Assembly: GCA_947500445.1 (NCBI GenBank)
Contig: CANMSB010000002.1
Span: forward strand, 1-64,000
Reading direction: 5' to 3'
DNA: 64,000 nucleotides
Source: an uncultured Flavobacteriaceae bacterium
Lineage (GTDB): Bacteria; Bacteroidota; Bacteroidia; Flavobacteriales; Flavobacteriaceae
The position numbers and the translations under genes were made by a program. Of the stretch, positions 1,216 to 18,103 are shown in pieces. The notes below the pieces were generated by a model. The model searched no databases, had not been told where the DNA came from, and saw only the letters and a list, made by a program, of their open reading frames with translations. Position 1 is the stretch's first letter. Each line of letters opens with the position of its first letter.

Positions 1216-1896
1216 CTAACTAAAGATAGCACTCCTTTTCAACGCAAACATAGTAAGACTATTGGGACCAGAAATCCGGAGTTTTCTACATATGCAATAT
1301 CTAACATTTTCTATTGTTTTCTTACTTCTGAAGAGAATTTCGGCAATTTCTGCGGTAGTTTTTTGTTCAGAGACCAATTTTAGTACGGTCATCTCCTTTT
1401 CGGTTAATCTCTGGAGCCTTTCAAGCTCTTTTCTGTGTAGCGTTTCATCAAGGATAATGGCGGGAACATTATGCTTTAAACAAATTGGGCTTATGTATTG
1501 TTTCCCGTACAGTACCGTTTTTATACAAGATAAGGTTTCTTCCCAGGTACACTCCTTTAGTAAGATACCATCCGCCTTGTTGGCAATGGCTTTTCCATAA
1601 TTAGAGTGGGAAATAAAGTTTCCGTACAAGATAATTTTTGTGGGTGATTCAGTTCTCTTTATTTTCTTTAGGACTTGAAGTCCATTAACTTTTGGAAGGT
1701 TAACATCGATAAAAGCAATGTCGGGCTTTAAATTCGAAATCTGCTTGATAGATTCAAAACCGTCTTTAGCTTGGCCAACTACTTTGTAATTAGTGGTGGC
1801 TTCTAACATTCTTTTCAGTCCTTCTCTGGCAATTAAATGATCATCTACAATTAATACGGAAGAGTTGTCGTTCTTCCTTTTCAAATTAACTTTCAT
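1216..1896 (-). CDS. LuxR/NarL-family response regulator
   Basis: DNA-binding response regulator of about 226 residues. The receiver domain starts with VLIVDDH and carries the acidic pair plus the phosphoacceptor Asp in FIDVNLP (about residue 64). The C-terminal part is a LuxR-type helix-turn-helix with LTEKEMTVLKLV, TTAEIAEILF and RSKKTIENV. I prefer the Met at 1896 because the receiver then begins at a usual distance; an upstream Met at 1929 would add 11 residues. It is probably phosphorylated by the kinase encoded just downstream. A degenerate relative lies upstream at 2298-2984. Confidence 0.88.
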   Translation of the reverse strand: MKVNLKRKNDNSSVLIVDDHLIAREGLKRMLEATTNYKVVGQAKDGFESIKQISNLKPDIAFIDVNLPKVNGLQVLKKIKRTESPTKIILYGNFISHSNYGKAIANKADGILLKECTWEETLSCIKTVLYGKQYISPICLKHNVPAIILDETLHRKELERLQRLTEKEMTVLKLVSEQKTTAEIAEILFRSKKTIENVRYCICRKLRISGPNSLTMFALKRSAIFS

Positions 1897-1929
1897 GGGT
1901 GAGGTTTTAAAAGGAAACCATAAGTACAA

Positions 1930-2297
1930 TATTATACTTAATCGTTATTCTTATTTGAATTATTGCGAGTTGGTCGGTAACAGAGTGTAAAATTTAGGGC
2001 CATGACAGGTTTGCGAGTTACAAAAAAAATTGAAATTTTTGCTTGTGAAATATCAATTTTACCCTAGTATTTAATATGATTTCATTTGGGTTAAAAAACG
2101 GCTTCTTTCCTAATTCCAAGGAGTCGCTTTTTCAATATATTTCTTTTTGATTTTGAGTTTCTCATTTCACGATATAAACTTTGTTCCTATTCAAAAAACA
2201 GTGAACAAAATAGATAATTGAGCTTGGGAGTTTTCGGTGATATAACTTCGAAATGTATGTTTTCATATAACAGGATTTTTTATGACTATGACGTCGG
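1930..2297. other. AT-rich intergenic stretch
   Basis: About 370 bases between the response regulator and its decayed relative. It is very AT-rich with scattered stop codons on both strands. I see no gene, RNA or clear repeat in it. Confidence 0.5.
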
Positions 2298-2984
2298 TCA
2301 AAATACAAGGCTTGACCGAACATATTTTTGATAAATGCGATAGGGAGGCTTCATAGTTAAGTTTTTTGGGCAATTTTTATTGATGAAGGCTAAAAATGTA
2401 TCAATTCTAAAGCGTATACCCTTTAAAAGAAATACTGTAAGGTTGTTAATGCAATAAGTCAGAAGGGTATTGTATATGGAATAGCTTACATTCTTTATGG
2501 TTTTTTTGCTCCTAATAATGAACTCTTCGCTTTTGTAGCCAGTCCTTTGCTTTGAGATTAATTTTACCACAACTCTCTGATTTTTAAATTGTTTGATGAA
2601 TCGCCCTAGTTCTTCCTTTTTTGGATTTTTAGCGAATGTGGTAATTAAACGAATATTCGGCTTCTTACATACAACCCTAACGTATTGCTTACCCGAAAAT
2701 GATTTAACGTTAAAATATGAAGAAAACTTCTTATGAAAACCAAGTTCTTTTAGAAGAAAGCTATTGGCCTTATCGTGCTTGGTATAATATATAAAACTGC
2801 AAAGCGGAATAAATTTTGGTAAAATATTTTTCTTCACATCTATCATCATGTGAAGTACACCGCCTTGAGGAGTATTAACGTCTACAAAAAGAAAATCAAA
2901 TTTTAGGTGTGATGTAAGTTTTATCGATTCAAGATTATTCGTTTTCAGTAATGATAAATACTTTTTTTTAATTTCTAAACTCAC
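2298..2984 (-). pseudogene. Degenerate response-regulator paralogue
   Basis: An open frame of 228 codons that aligns colinearly with the intact response regulator at 1216-1896. Shared blocks are LESIK, the FVDVN-P phosphoacceptor region, LLKE, the SGKQYV region (GKQYI in the regulator), KEEL, VVKLIS, IRSKKTI and NLTVF. The start of the receiver domain with its VLIVDDH acidic pair is absent. The TAEIAEIL recognition segment is replaced by a Lys-rich sequence. Composition is strongly Lys/Phe/Asn-biased and AT-rich. It is either a decaying duplicate or a rapidly diverging regulator with no phosphorylation site chemistry. The frame is still open, so it could still be translated. Confidence 0.6.
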
Positions 2985-3589
2985 TCTTTTTTACATTTCT
3001 TGAAAGAATCAACAATCCAACAGTCTAGCAACGGAAATTTTTAAGGTTTTTTTGCTGACCGAATGCTGTTAAACTTCTATCAAAAATTTAGGCAATATAG
3101 CCGGAACTTTGAAACCAAGATAGGACATATTGATCTATTTTTTATTATTTTATTTACAAAATTTTGACATATTCGACAAAATGCCTTAAGCTTATTCTTA
3201 CACTGAATAAGAGGTTTTTAAGCAGATGTTACCTTTCCATATTATATATCTGATTATCAACAACTTATCATTTTTTGAAGTTTAAGGTTCCATGTTTTGG
3301 GCTACACTTTTGGGCCTTTGGCTGTCAGAAATAAGAACTACACCAGTTACACATATCATTTTAGAAAATAGATTATATCATAGCGACTCAAAGAACTTAA
3401 TATTAAACCTACTCTAGTCATCAAAATTCCCCGATGCCTCATTACGTAGGTTTTTATATTATCCCAAAACTACCACAATACTTTGACGAAGAGGTTAGTG
3501 TAATATTTTTAAAAATTTAGCGCGGCTTTACCAAATGGTTACTACGTAAATTCTATGTAAAATTAATGGTTCCTCTTATTAAAAATGAA
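2985..3589. other. AT-rich gene-free stretch beside the IS element
   Basis: About 600 bases with high A+T content and no supportable gene or RNA. The right part would hold the far end of the IS200-like element, but I could not identify a convincing end hairpin there. Confidence 0.4.
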
Positions 3590-14735: not shown

Positions 14736-15488
14736 ATGCCAGTTAACGGAACCATTCCTTACGAACCGTCACTTTTCGGGACTCAGATAAACATACATCT
14801 GGTACTGGAATACGCTGCCTTTTTCGTCGCTTTTCGGTATTATGTATACCTTAGAAAACACCGTACGGACACGATTTCTTCCAACAACCGATTATCGATC
14901 ATTATAGGAGCCATCTTTGGGGCCTTGTTCCTCTCCCGCTTGGTGGCGTTCATGGAAAATCCCCCCGTACACCTGCAACAGGGATGGATAGCGTTATTAA
15001 ACAACAAAACGATTATGGGCGGGCTCTTTGGGGGACTTTTGGGCGTAGAACTGGCGAAAAAAGTCATTCGGGAAAAACAATCCTCGGGCGATTTGTTTAC
15101 GTTTCCCATTATACTTGGCATTATCATCGGGCGTATCGGGTGTTTTTTGAGCGGAACCAAGGAATTCACCTATGGTAAGGCCACAACACTATTTCTCGGC
15201 ATGGACCTTGGCGATGGCCTGCTCCGACATCCCATTGCTTTGTACGAGGTCGTTTTTCTAATACTACTGTTCGCCGGCTTAAAGCGGTTTGAAAAACGGT
15301 TCATCCGTTTTGAAGAAGGATTGCTTTTCAAGGTTTTTATGATCGCCTACTTTCTGTTTCGATTTTGTATCGAGTTTTTGAAACCCAATACATTTTTTAT
15401 CGCAGGGCTCAGTAGCATCCAAATATTATGTTTAATTTGTTTACTGTATTATCAAAGAACCATACGCAACGCGCTATCCCATGGCTGA
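14736..15488 (+). CDS. Divergent Lgt-like prolipoprotein diacylglyceryl transferase homologue
   Basis: Polytopic membrane protein of 250 residues with about seven helices. It shows the Lgt skeleton: MGGLFGG (94-100), GRIGCF (132-137), RHPIALYE (164-171) and a terminal YFLFRFCIEFLKP (205-217). True Lgt moves a diacylglyceryl group from phosphatidylglycerol to the lipobox Cys on the periplasmic face. Here the catalytic His of the HGGL motif is Met94, and the Asn of GRIGN is Cys136. Arg133, Arg209 and Glu213 are kept. It is therefore probably not the cell's housekeeping Lgt. It overlaps the downstream radical SAM gene by eight bases, so the two are almost certainly translated together. Substrate unknown. 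Confidence 0.82.
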   Translation: MPVNGTIPYEPSLFGTQINIHLVLEYAAFFVAFRYYVYLRKHRTDTISSNNRLSIIIGAIFGALFLSRLVAFMENPPVHLQQGWIALLNNKTIMGGLFGGLLGVELAKKVIREKQSSGDLFTFPIILGIIIGRIGCFLSGTKEFTYGKATTLFLGMDLGDGLLRHPIALYEVVFLILLFAGLKRFEKRFIRFEEGLLFKVFMIAYFLFRFCIEFLKPNTFFIAGLSSIQILCLICLLYYQRTIRNALSHG

Positions 15489-16875
15489 AAAAAACTATAC
15501 CTATTACGATTTTACGTTGAGCCTATGCCCGGAATGCCTGCGTAGGGTGGATGCAAAAATCGTGTTCGAAAACGAAAAGGTGTACATGCTGAAGCATTGC
15601 AAGACCCATGGGCGCAGTAAGGTGCTCATTGCGGACGATATTGAATATTACAAGAACATACGCAATTATAACAAAGCTTCCGAATATCCGAAAACCTTCA
15701 ATACCAAAACACACTATGGGTGCCCTTACGATTGTGGGCTTTGCCCGGACCATGAGCAACATTCCTGCCTTACCGTGGTAGAAGTTACCGACCGCTGTAA
15801 CCTTACCTGCCCTACCTGCTATGCGGGATCGTCCCCCACTTACGGAAGACACCGGACCTTAGCGGAAATAAAATTGATGCTCGATGCGATCGTAAGAAAT
15901 GAAGGAGAGCCCGATGTGGTTCAGATCAGCGGGGGGGAGCCTACGATACATCCAGAATTTTTTGAAATTTTGGACTATGCCAAATCGCTTCCGATACGCC
16001 ATTTGATGGTCAATACCAATGGAATTAAAATAGCCAAGGACCTGGACTTTGCTAAAAAACTGGCGACCTATGCCCCCGATTTTGAAATATACCTGCAGTT
16101 CGATTCGTTGGAGAATGCCGTGTTGCAAACGCTTCGGGGCGCCGATCTGGCGGAAACAAGGTTGCAAGCTTTGGAACACCTCAACCAACTCAATCTTTCC
16201 ACCACCTTGGTCGTTACCTTGCAAAAGGGACTGAACGATCTTGAAATGGGGAAAACCATCGATTTTGCGGTCAAACAAAAGTGTGTTCGGGGCGTTACTT
16301 TTCAGCCCACACAAATTGCGGGAAGGTTGGAAAATTTCGATGCCGGGGAAAACCGGATCACCCTAACGGAGGTGCGCCGGAAAATTTTGGAGCAGTCCCC
16401 TATTTTTGAACCCGACGACCTGATTCCCGTACCCTGTAATCCTGATGCCCTGGTAATGGCCTATGCCCTAAAAATCGGAAACGAAGTGAGCCCCTTGACC
16501 CGCTTCATTAACCCGGACGACTTATTGAACGAGGGCAAGAATACCATTATCTATGAGCAAGATCACGAGCTACATGGTAAAATGATAGAGCTGTTCAGCA
16601 CCGGTAATTCCGTGGAAAAAGCCTCGGAAAACCTGAAAAGCATCATGTGCTGTTTACCGGAAATCGATGCTCCGGAACTGGGGTACGATAATCTGTTCCG
16701 AATCATCATCATGCAATTTATAGATGCCCATAATTTTGATGTAAGGGCCATCAAAAAGTCCTGCGTACATATCGTGAACAAAGACTATCAAATTATACCC
16801 TTTGAGACCATGAACCTGTTCTACAGGGACGATAAGGTCGCGTACTTAAAACAACTACAGAACGAAATCGTATGA
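15481..16875 (+). CDS. Radical SAM protein of the tetraether-synthase (Tes/MJ0619) type
   Basis: Protein of 464 residues with four metal-site motifs. Cys16-Cys19-Cys40-His43 (CPEC, KHCKTHG) resembles the N-terminal rubredoxin-like site. Cys81-Cys85-Cys88-Cys96 (CPYDCGLCPDHEQHSC) would hold an auxiliary cluster. Cys106-Cys110-Cys113 (CNLTCPTC) is the radical SAM cluster. A later Cys set (VPCNPD, MCCLPE, KKSCVH) would hold a second auxiliary cluster. GGEPT is the SAM-binding motif. This layout is that of archaeal tetraether lipid synthase, which couples lipid tails by C-C bond formation, and of related bacterial proteins. Pairing with an Lgt homologue suggests lipid or lipoprotein-tail chemistry; methyl transfer is an alternative. 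Confidence 0.8.
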   Translation: MAEKNYTYYDFTLSLCPECLRRVDAKIVFENEKVYMLKHCKTHGRSKVLIADDIEYYKNIRNYNKASEYPKTFNTKTHYGCPYDCGLCPDHEQHSCLTVVEVTDRCNLTCPTCYAGSSPTYGRHRTLAEIKLMLDAIVRNEGEPDVVQISGGEPTIHPEFFEILDYAKSLPIRHLMVNTNGIKIAKDLDFAKKLATYAPDFEIYLQFDSLENAVLQTLRGADLAETRLQALEHLNQLNLSTTLVVTLQKGLNDLEMGKTIDFAVKQKCVRGVTFQPTQIAGRLENFDAGENRITLTEVRRKILEQSPIFEPDDLIPVPCNPDALVMAYALKIGNEVSPLTRFINPDDLLNEGKNTIIYEQDHELHGKMIELFSTGNSVEKASENLKSIMCCLPEIDAPELGYDNLFRIIIMQFIDAHNFDVRAIKKSCVHIVNKDYQIIPFETMNLFYRDDKVAYLKQLQNEIV

Positions 16876-17057
16876 GCGCTATATTTCTTTTGTTGTTCGG
16901 ACCGGCCTTGGTATTTTTTATCGTTGCCCTGGTGAGTTTGGTCAAAAAGAAGAAAAAACGGGCAAAGATTTTTTTTATCCTTACCGGGGTCTACCTATTA
17001 ATCAGTTTGGGTACCTGTGGCATCATGCTCGCCAACCTTTCGTTGGACGTCAAATAA
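16872..17057 (+). CDS. Small two-helix membrane protein A with S-L-G-x-C end
   Basis: Mini-protein of 61 residues that overlaps the radical SAM stop by four bases (ATGA), implying translational coupling. Helix 1 (about 3-24) is followed by the basic loop KKKKKRAK, then helix 2 (about 33-48) ending in SLGTC and a short tail. By the positive-inside rule the loop is cytoplasmic and both ends are periplasmic. Helix 2 with its basic flank and Leu-Gly-x-Cys therefore resembles a lipoprotein signal, but the -1 residue is Thr rather than Gly or Ala. It is homologous to the next two mini-proteins. Function unknown. Confidence 0.75.
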   Translation: MSAIFLLLFGPALVFFIVALVSLVKKKKKRAKIFFILTGVYLLISLGTCGIMLANLSLDVK

Positions 17058-17064
17058 TAAAGAT

Positions 17065-17268
17065 ATGCGTATCCATTTGCCATTAGAGCTCTATTTTAGC
17101 GATGCCTTCGTTTTTGGAGTAGTAATGTTACTGCCCGGGTTTTTGTTTTTATTGATTGCCATCATCCTGTTGTTCACAAAAGATAAAAAATCGGCAAAAA
17201 CGTTATTCATTATAGCGGGAATATGTTTTTTGGTATCGCTTGGGCTTTGTAGCATTGGAGGAATGTAG
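17065..17268 (+). CDS. Small two-helix membrane protein B with S-L-G-x-C end
   Basis: Mini-protein of 67 residues (MRIHLPLELYF...), starting eight bases after the stop of protein A. I take the ATG at 17065 because an upstream in-frame Met at 17017 lies inside gene A. Helix 1 (about 14-35) is followed by the basic loop TKDKKSAK, then helix 2 (about 44-60) ending in SLGLCSIGGM. It shares AK-x-x-FI-x-AG-x-x-x-x-x-SLG-x-C with its two neighbours. It is the middle member of a tandem family. Function unknown. Confidence 0.75.
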   Translation: MRIHLPLELYFSDAFVFGVVMLLPGFLFLLIAIILLFTKDKKSAKTLFIIAGICFLVSLGLCSIGGM

Positions 17269-17340
17269 TTTAAGGGACCGATTACCACGCCATGCCCTTC
17301 AACTGGGGTTTTTAAAACGCTCGGCTACTGAATCGGTTCG

Positions 17341-17425
17341 GTAGTAAACTACCCCCCCGGGGAAGCCCACGAGGCATTCGCAGGAAGCAAACGTTTAATT
17401 TCGAGGCAAGCCTTGAGGAATTAAA
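17341..17425. repeat. GC-rich tandem/palindromic intergenic motif
   Basis: Two related units, CGGGGAAGCCCACGAGGCATT-like at 17358-17378 and CGAGGCAAGCCTTGAGGAATT-like at 17402-17422, are separated by about 23 bases. The second sits inside a palindrome (TTTAATT ... AATTAAA, 17394-17425). It lies between small proteins B and C and may fold in the operon mRNA. It also resembles an intergenic mobile repeat. Confidence 0.45.
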
Positions 17426-17469
17426 TCCTTTGGCGGTGCCAATAAAATGTTTATTAAAATTGAGAACAC

Positions 17470-17682
17470 ATGTATATTGGTATTCCCTTGGAGGTAGGCA
17501 ACCTTGATGGCTTACTGACCATCATTTTTCTAATCATGCTCGGACCGCCTTTGGTCCTTGTTTTAATAGGGGTTCTCTCCCAAAAAAAGAATAAAAAAAT
17601 TGCCAAGGTATGCTATATTTTGGCGGGTGTCTATTTAGTGGTCAGCTTGGGAATATGCAGCGGTGCCCTGGGAGGGTTTTAA
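17470..17682 (+). CDS. Small two-helix membrane protein C with S-L-G-x-C end
   Basis: Mini-protein of 70 residues. A short N-terminal part (MYIGIPLEVGNLDG) is followed by helix 1 (about 15-36, IIFLIMLGPPLVLVLIG), the basic loop QKKNKKIAK, and helix 2 (about 46-62) ending in SLGICSGALGGF. It is clearly homologous to proteins A and B, with GP-x-LV, AK-x-x-x-I and AGVYL-x-x-SLG-x-C conserved. It is separated from B by about 200 bases of repeat-like DNA, so it may be a duplicated copy with its own promoter. Function unknown. Confidence 0.72.
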   Translation: MYIGIPLEVGNLDGLLTIIFLIMLGPPLVLVLIGVLSQKKNKKIAKVCYILAGVYLVVSLGICSGALGGF

Positions 17683-17724
17683 TATATCGGTTCATGGAAA
17701 AGGAATGAGATTCTTTTTAAACAT

Positions 17725-17935
17725 TGAACTCATTTAGACTTTTTGGATTGAAGCGAAAATTATCCATTTTAAGTCCTGTTGAAGACTTTTTTGAGTTTCA
17801 TAGCAGGGCTACGGGAGGAAAAAAAGACAGGGCCGAAAGAAAAAGCCAATGATTTGGCTTTTGATGAGGAGCCGGCCGGCGCGTCGAGCGAAAAGGGCAA
17901 TTTTTTAGCCAATTAAAAAAGTCTAAATGAGTTCA
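17725..17935. repeat. 211-bp palindromic element with perfect 20-bp terminal inverted repeats
   Basis: The left end TGAACTCATTTAGACTTTTT (17725-17744) is repeated exactly in inverted form at 17916-17935. The interior carries the CATAGC (17799-17804) / GCTACGG (17808-17814) core that also occurs in other palindromic elements of this window, flanked by T-runs and A-runs that can pair. No gene is inside. It looks like a MITE-like element or a large structured RNA element. Confidence 0.75.
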
Positions 17936-18103
17936 TTGTATCAGCGTAGTGGTAAAAAGCTGGCAGTAAAATGTTTAGTGATTCGTAAAGGTTGCCGAGG
18001 TATTGAAAATTATTTATTCCCAATACTCGTGGAGGAGAGGGTTTCGCTAAAGTGCAGGTTTTTAGCTAACGCCTGTGAACAACGAAGTGGCTTATACCAT
18101 TTT
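17935..18103. repeat. Diverged intergenic repeat, copy 2
   Basis: About 170 bases colinear with copy 1 at 14406-14595. It begins exactly where the palindromic element at 17725-17935 ends and runs into the 26-bp motif at 18094-18119, so three repeat types are packed together here. No gene is supported in it. Confidence 0.6.

Follow-up and report, generated by a model that had tools for sequence, protein, structure and literature searches.

Why a flavobacterium should keep a relative of Lgt, a radical S-adenosylmethionine (rSAM) protein resembling the tetraether synthase Tes and three very small membrane proteins in a single operon is the question raised by positions 14736-17682 of the DNA analysed here. 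This is a stretch of 64,000 nucleotides (the window) from contig CANMSB010000002.1 of assembly GCA_947500445.1, an uncultured Flavobacteriaceae bacterium. Comparison with other genomes confirmed that the operon is a conserved three-part module, consisting of an Lgt-like protein, an rSAM protein related to TrsS and Tes, and one to four small membrane proteins. Its most telling feature, which the initial annotation of the window did not mention, is a near-invariant cysteine close to the C-terminus of the small proteins; this residue is the likely acceptor of the Lgt-like enzyme. With about even confidence, we read the operon as a dedicated membrane-lipid module, in which the Lgt-like protein would lipidate the C-terminal cysteine and the rSAM protein would modify lipid tails. 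The module is real and conserved, its parts are divergent relatives of Lgt and Tes, and it is undescribed as far as literature searches of openly licensed PubMed Central (PMC) papers reach: these returned no described pathway with this gene set, in agreement with the initial annotation, and no described system pairing Lgt with an rSAM protein.

Five plus-strand open reading frames (ORFs) were confirmed within the operon, the first three overlapping by 8 and 4 bases as initially annotated. The features are as follows.

14736..15488, + strand: Lgt-family integral membrane protein, 250 aa (PF01790 match, 5azb profile match, residues in 129 relatives)
15481..16875, + strand: rSAM protein of the Tes/TrsS kind, 464 aa (PF04055, PF23545, 7tol match, predicted model, 19-sequence alignment)
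16872..17057, + strand: two-helix small membrane protein A, 61 aa, C-terminal motif LGTCG (family of 136 non-redundant small proteins)
17065..17268, + strand: two-helix small membrane protein B, 67 aa, C-terminal motif LGLCS (same family)
17470..17682, + strand: two-helix small membrane protein C, 70 aa, C-terminal motif LGICS (same family)
17016..17018, + strand: conserved Cys49 codon of protein A, TGT (Cys in 99% of 136 aligned small proteins)
17248..17250, + strand: conserved Cys62 codon of protein B, TGT (same alignment)
17656..17658, + strand: conserved Cys63 codon of protein C, TGC (same alignment)

Co-inheritance of the three parts

Genomes were drawn from the family (299) and from the phylum (395), with some genomes in both draws. 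In the family draw the rSAM gene was matched in 38 genomes (32 of 236 genera), one of which (G186) has it divided between two contigs. The Lgt-like gene was present in 37 (31 of 236 genera), exactly those with a near-complete rSAM gene. The sole rSAM remnant seen (G072, contig 7, 758597-758978) consists of two fragments, one of them containing a stop. No Lgt-like gene was found in this genome either, consistent with joint loss. The phylum draw gave 34 genomes with the rSAM gene, 33 with the Lgt-like gene and 32 with both (Fisher p 1.4e-43, a value that ignores kinship and is therefore too optimistic). Co-occurrence in other genomes had been set beforehand as the check on which the initial annotation could fail; in the union of both draws the two genes are found together in 65 genomes, with the rSAM gene in 68 and the Lgt-like gene in 66. 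The two rSAM-only genomes, G361 and G588, carry Tes-type enzymes at 31% identity, which score 493.8 and 441.9 bits with the Tes model (cut-off 450).

The genes are also physically linked. The 68 matching genomes yielded 56 rSAM loci (L003-L058; the others gave no locus), and BLAST placed an Lgt-like gene inside the 1.5 kb flanks of 52 of these. It lies at or just past the flank edge in L057 and L058, and on another contig in G330 and G559, where both enzymes are present. Among named loci, taken as the best 80 of at least 580 confirmed stretches, the Lgt-like gene is upstream of the rSAM gene in 78, and the contigs of the other two begin at or next to the rSAM gene; in L097, L098 and L111 it begins about 2.3 to 4.8 kb ahead of the rSAM start. 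At least one recognisable small protein occurs in each of the 80, and the mini membrane proteins do belong with the enzymes, as had been proposed. The hosts include Maribacter, Zobellia, Arenibacter, Tenacibaculum, Winogradskyella, Flavobacterium, Aquimarina, Lewinella, Fulvivirga and Saprospiraceae. Conservation across loci excludes a chance pairing of the rSAM and Lgt-like genes. At many Flavobacteriaceae loci the same neighbourhood of LepA, tRNA-dihydrouridine synthase, RbfA and an ABC permease recurs (names assigned by eye), and this housekeeping block supplies the most recurrent gene clusters within 8 kb, the module aside. Just 3' of the operon lies an imperfect inverted repeat of 49 bases (78%; window 17721-17769 and 17891-17939). 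Direct repeats flanking the operon, suspected at 14.4 and 17.9 kb, found no support on checking.

Phyla outside Bacteroidota were reached through plasmid records only, of which 10 matched the rSAM protein and 7 were examined. All three module parts are complete on a Persicobacter (Bacteroidota) plasmid. On plasmids of M. avium and M. branderi the Lgt-like gene comes first, then two small-protein genes and the rSAM gene; in Nonomuraea a single small-protein gene precedes the Lgt-like gene, with the rSAM gene last. The five small proteins read in these Actinomycetota have proline-rich N-terminal parts and end in a helix followed by (A/G/V)-G-x-C-T-G-(L/I)-N-P. The rSAM relatives of M. vanbaalenii and two haloarchaeal plasmids adjoin methyltransferase-domain proteins instead (L183, 6968-9336; L184, 5001-7164; L185, 4974-7084); those of L183 and L184 score slightly nearer to TrsS than to Tes, under both cut-offs.

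Trees of the two enzymes, both rooted at midpoint only, agree with separate module families. The 24 module Lgt-like rows group in a single clade (100/99), which excludes all but one of the 19 rows for the other Lgt proteins of these genomes. The exception, L218, falls inside the clade on a very long branch; the product of this gene (1465-3195) has 576 residues, in which an Lgt domain at the N-terminus is followed by a long tail matching no recognised Pfam family. The 23 module rSAM rows form one group against five outgroup rows (94/88), with long branches flagged. Three deep groups are common to both trees: L163 with the Actinomycetota, L160-L162, and the remaining rows. In L160-L162, the rSAM group of 38-40%, a methyltransferase of the ICMT/PEMT family follows the rSAM gene (L162, 4784-5374, over the cut-offs for PF04140 and PF04191; L160 from about 10868 and L161 from about 10938, recognised by eye). 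The window operon has no such methyltransferase; where it occurs, it is a further pointer to chemistry on lipids or on a lipid-anchored cysteine. A small Cys-rich membrane protein stands between it and the Lgt-like gene in L160 and L161. Another small membrane protein, with a common DTRLVLAYL stretch, follows the rSAM gene both in L186 (6356-6787) and, on the minus strand, in L163.

The C-terminal cysteine of the small membrane proteins

Alignment of 136 non-redundant recognisable small proteins placed a cysteine close to the C-terminal end in 99%, with glycine at position -2 also in 99%. Loci with any recognisable small gene have one to four. The usual ending is a basic loop, the last transmembrane helix, G-x-C and a short tail, carried by sequences that have diverged past BLAST recognition. 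Proteins B and C have an extra cysteine inside helix 2 (C54 and C48, respectively). Protein B is counted as 67 aa from an ATG; the alternative GTG at 17017 would give 83 aa.

The cysteine extends beyond the proteins recognised by alignment. Thirteen of the 17 loci without a recognisable small protein (L041-L045, L047-L058) still have small multi-helix ORFs adjoining the rSAM gene with a cysteine ending the last helix, in sequences that otherwise differ. A uniform scan found an ORF of the helix-end-Cys type beside the rSAM gene in 134 of 137 loci, missing L043 (at a contig end), L044 (genome G330) and L057 (where the gene lies further along, as seen in L160). Loci L058, L161, L162 and L163 were left out of this count because the sequence expression used to recognise the rSAM did not match there; a small protein with a terminal helix and G-x-C is present in L161, L162 and L163, and L058 is the same place as L161.

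As controls we took 118 further ORFs from these loci, each with two or more predicted helices and only a short tail at its C-terminus. With helices predicted by a simple hydropathy scan, and with the operon ORFs related to each other so that the counts are not independent, a cysteine ends the last helix in 150 of 158 operon ORFs against 14 of 118 controls, and GxC does so in 138 of 158 against 1 of 118. Lys and Arg are more numerous before the last helix than after it in 156 of 158 operon ORFs and in 25 of 118 controls. Some of the eight operon ORFs without the cysteine resemble unrelated neighbours, and that of L120 is a small-protein paralogue with Phe in its place.

Basic residues flanking a transmembrane helix mark its cytoplasmic side (the positive-inside rule). 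Given the Lys/Arg excess before the last helix, the cysteine is predicted to lie on the periplasmic side, where Lgt works. By its sequence, the last helix is laid out as a lipoprotein signal (basic residues, hydrophobic stretch, small residue, Cys) shifted to the C-terminus. A lipobox has its small residue at -1, whereas the small proteins have theirs at -2; inspection of the three window small proteins by eye showed no lipobox at the N-terminus.

Library searches gave no better identity for these proteins. NF058595, a putative C-terminal anchoring domain ('lipo-invert'), gave protein A 12.4 bits against a cut-off of 37 and also matched the L160 small protein weakly; across 26 genomes nothing exceeded the cut-off, and since all 14 control genomes matched weakly as well, we attribute the matches to noise from hydrophobic stretches. 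Pfam matches were weak, the best being DUF4064 (E 0.0003, under the cut-off), and were set aside. Phage and anti-phage libraries gave two weak matches of unknown function.

The Lgt-like and radical SAM proteins

The Lgt-like protein exceeds the cut-off of the Pfam LGT family (PF01790, 77.7 against 24.9 bits), falls under that of the curated Lgt equivalog (TIGR00544, 45.9 against 118.9 bits) and matches E. coli Lgt (5azb) in profile comparison with E 3.5e-17. The genome also encodes, on a different contig, another member of the Lgt family, which scores far better with the family model (195 versus 77 bits). The Lgt-like protein has no match in phage and anti-phage libraries.

Six residues are required in E. 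coli Lgt: Y26, H103, R143, N146, G154 and R239 (PMC13251419; cf. PMC4728403). Their counterparts were counted in 129 module members, leaving out proteins of under 200 residues or under 150 bits, such as the split genes L115 and L124. The equivalents of R143, G154 and R239 (here R133, G147 and R209) are retained in 129/129, and the E243 equivalent is Glu in 123 and Asp in 6. The other three required residues are replaced. At the Tyr26 position (here H21) we find His in 125, Tyr in 3 and Gln in 1. The Asn146 position (here C136) is Cys in 129/129; as 11 of the 18 remaining Lgt proteins in these genomes likewise have Cys there, this change is not special. MAFFT aligns His103 with M94 (M, V, L, A or T in 129/129, against Y in 9, H in 7 and F in 2 of the 18 other Lgt) and HMMER aligns it with F98 (Phe in 107/129), and His occupies neither column. 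Some true Lgt proteins are reported to carry F, Y or W at the His103 position (PMC13251419). R143 and R239 have been tied to the positioning of phosphatidylglycerol, and the poorly conserved His103 has been suggested to serve protein-substrate binding (PMC13251419). Kept arginines with a lost His103 form the pattern expected of a lipid transferase with a different protein acceptor. This residue argument is only suggestive, because His103 and Asn146 vary elsewhere and because the His103 column differs between MAFFT and HMMER.

The rSAM protein (ORF 2) carries PF04055 and PF23545, and among solved structures its best match is M. jannaschii Tes (7tol, E 4.3e-66). In line with the initial annotation, Tes is by far the nearest fold: Foldseek gives the predicted model a TM score of 0.79 to 7tom and 0.43 to the next different protein, MoaA, with a mean pLDDT of 72 and pTM of 0.78 for a model in which residues 65-94, 107-121 and 350-396, including cluster loops, are below 50. 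Tetraether-synthase-like is thus apt as a description of the fold. As a family assignment it does not hold: the protein scores 279.7 bits against the 450 required by the curated Tes model NF045702, a level that a Tes-type enzyme of the same phylum exceeds (493.8), and 324.4 bits over residues 12-454 against the 490 required by the TrsS model NF045646, its best-scoring NCBIfam model.

Tes has a rubredoxin domain (C9-x2-C12-x20-C33-x2-H36), an N-terminal cluster held by C73, C77, C80 and a His, the CX3CX2C motif, and a C-terminal cluster with a labile Met439; Met439 and Tyr459 are completely conserved in archaeal Tes (PMC9433317). The first three sites are all present in the window protein, with identical rubredoxin spacing (C16-x2-C19-x20-C40-x2-H43). 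In 19 aligned homologues, 60-91% identical to the window rSAM, no variation is seen at C16, C19, C40, C81, C85, C88, C96, C106, C110 and C113 and almost none at H43, which bears out the Cys/His set named in the initial annotation. Also invariant are H91 and H94, the late cysteines C319, C390, C391 and C428, M411 (aligned with Met439) and I431 (aligned with Tyr459); C96 is an extra cysteine aligned with a Leu of Tes. The Cys of the Tes FCTYN motif is replaced by Glu. With Ile431 for Tyr459, Glu for the FCTYN cysteine and its own late cysteine set, we consider the rSAM protein Tes-like but of its own subfamily. The rSAMs of the Actinomycetota and L163 (L163, L186, L187, L188) lack the CPYDCGLC stretch (C81/C85/C88, the N-terminal cluster) and keep the rubredoxin and CX3CX2C sites. 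A viperin identity (PADLOC pVip) was rejected, the match being limited to the radical SAM core (residues 101-236), as were other phage and anti-phage families, whose matches are confined to the same core.

Possible functions and comparison with known systems

In the reading we prefer, the small membrane proteins would be acceptors whose C-terminal GxC cysteine lies at the periplasmic face. The Lgt-like enzyme would move a glycerol-linked lipid from a phospholipid onto this cysteine. The rSAM protein would remove a hydrogen atom from a hydrocarbon chain, either of the donor lipid or of the attached one, and modify that chain, most likely by carbon-carbon coupling. We infer the topology, the lipidation, the lipid substrate of the rSAM protein and the order of the steps from the conserved layout and the family relations. 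The active site of Tes accommodates two lipids (PMC9433317), and for Mss of Bacillota the proposed reaction is a condensation of phosphatidylglycerol-containing monomers (PMC13274423). Because phosphatidylglycerol is both the Lgt donor and part of the Mss monomer, a shared donor lipid would link the two enzymes naturally. A more tentative extension, which we think unlikely, is that the rSAM protein welds the cysteine-attached tail to another tail, so that ordinary mesophilic bacteria would anchor proteins covalently to membrane-spanning or cross-linked lipid, in a new kind of protein lipidation.

Several observations weigh against a lipid module of this kind. The rSAM protein is presumably cytoplasmic, and the cysteine of the small proteins is predicted to be periplasmic. 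Of the six residues that E. coli Lgt requires, three are replaced, and His103 and Asn146 vary in other Lgt proteins too (PMC13251419). On the rSAM side the Tes tyrosine and the FCTYN cysteine are missing, and the Tes and TrsS cut-offs are both failed. G315 has an Lgt-like gene, with the rare Gln at the His21 position, and no rSAM gene. G330 has both enzymes and no small GxC protein beside the rSAM gene or within 20 kb of either gene, an absence that is weak because the same 20 kb scan missed the known L160 small protein. No annotated Lgt lies within 5-7 kb of the Mycolicibacterium and haloarchaeal plasmid rSAM relatives, and since these pair with methyltransferase-domain proteins, the wider rSAM family need not act on lipids. 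We found no report of membrane-spanning lipids in these bacteria, in searches none of which was aimed at that alone, and in the available part of a study of soil Bacteroidetes lipids iso-diabolic acid appears in the reference list only (PMC10025309).

The alternative that survives best, which we judge somewhat improbable, has free membrane lipids as the products. The two enzymes would make an unusual lipid, with a glycerol-lipid group transferred onto a small acceptor; the small proteins would be subunits or chaperones, and their cysteine would be structural or serve in binding. In favour of this, lipids are the substrates of Tes, whose fold is nearest, G330 holds both enzymes with no small protein found nearby, and the small proteins vary in sequence and helix number. 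Yet the cysteine and the basic-helix-GxC layout are kept while nearly all else in these proteins changes, and an acceptor site therefore fits better than a generic subunit.

The small proteins could also be precursors of ribosomally synthesized and post-translationally modified peptides (RiPPs), modified by the rSAM protein, lipidated or anchored by the Lgt-like protein and possibly membrane-active. Many rSAM enzymes mature peptides. Tandem, fast-diverging small ORFs directly follow the rSAM gene, and they are 25-66% identical where the rSAM proteins are 74-91% identical to that of the window. We nevertheless regard RiPP-like maturation as improbable: the nearest fold is Tes and not a peptide maturase, peptide-maturase models match over the radical SAM core, inspection by eye showed no core-peptide motif apart from the Cys motif, and no peptidase or dedicated exporter was recognised by eye among the 25 most recurrent neighbour clusters, the housekeeping ABC permease excepted.

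It is very unlikely that the rSAM protein uses the cysteine as a redox site, metal site or sulfur carrier, with the Lgt-like protein a non-catalytic lipid-binding scaffold. The three replaced Lgt residues and the wealth of conserved cysteines in the rSAM protein would suit such an arrangement, but a lone cysteine at a predicted periplasmic face is badly placed for a cytoplasmic enzyme, and the Lgt arginines are retained in 129/129. Finally, the recurring LepA/tRNA-dihydrouridine synthase/ABC permease neighbourhood could by itself yield linkage, yet the idea that the genes are together by chance or as its passengers can be dismissed as contradicted, since the pairing persists in other families, in Actinomycetota and where the genes are unlinked, and the sole rSAM remnant lies in a genome without the Lgt-like gene.

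The role of bacterial Tes homologues is not confirmed by experiment according to the relevant passages of PMC8941075, PMC9433317 and PMC11868695. For one branch of them, the module offers an enzymatic partner, a possible protein substrate and one particular residue for mutagenesis, which makes the role of that branch directly testable. Should the cysteine be lipidated, there would be a C-terminal counterpart to lipoprotein maturation; should the rSAM protein couple tails, membrane-spanning or cross-linked lipids would be made by ordinary flavobacteria.

Among known systems, E. coli Lgt (5azb/5azc), whose active site faces the periplasm (PMC4728403), shares with the module protein the PF01790 family, the equivalents of R143, G154 and R239, and an acidic residue at the E243 position. 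The module protein differs in its replaced His103 and Tyr26 equivalents, its failure of the equivalog cut-off, its separate clade and the C-terminal position of the candidate acceptor cysteine. Tes (MJ0619, 7tol/7tom) shares with the module rSAM protein the fold, the rubredoxin-type site, C81/C85/C88 with a conserved His, CX3CX2C and a counterpart of Met439. The module protein departs from it in its score below the NCBIfam Tes cut-off, in Ile for Tyr459, Glu for the FCTYN cysteine and its own late cysteines, and in having an Lgt-like partner; neither of the two phylum genomes with Tes-type enzymes, one scoring above the cut-off and the other slightly below it, has such a partner. TrsS (NF045646) is the top NCBIfam model, with its cut-off unmet, and the relatives nearer to TrsS (L183, L184) pair with a methyltransferase-domain protein rather than with Lgt-like and GxC proteins. 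Mss, Tes and Ger are treated in PMC13274423 and PMC11868695, with Mss matches in 7 of 273 Bacteroidota metagenome-assembled genomes; the passages concerned mention no pairing with Lgt. Haloferax AliA/AliB were considered as a parallel and not used, as the review passages in PMC12186497 do not call them Lgt homologues.

A further likeness to the Lgt-like protein is in mycobacteria. Their second Lgt homologue, MSMEG_5408 of M. smegmatis, has Y26H and N146C (PMC13251419), the same two replacements as the module protein, and the Lgt-like genes of the M. avium and M. branderi plasmids lie in the module. That MSMEG_5408 itself belongs to a module is a guess, made from its published description only; the comparison offers a possible role for this odd homologue. 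The parts are relatives of known kinds, and their combination with a C-terminal acceptor would be new.

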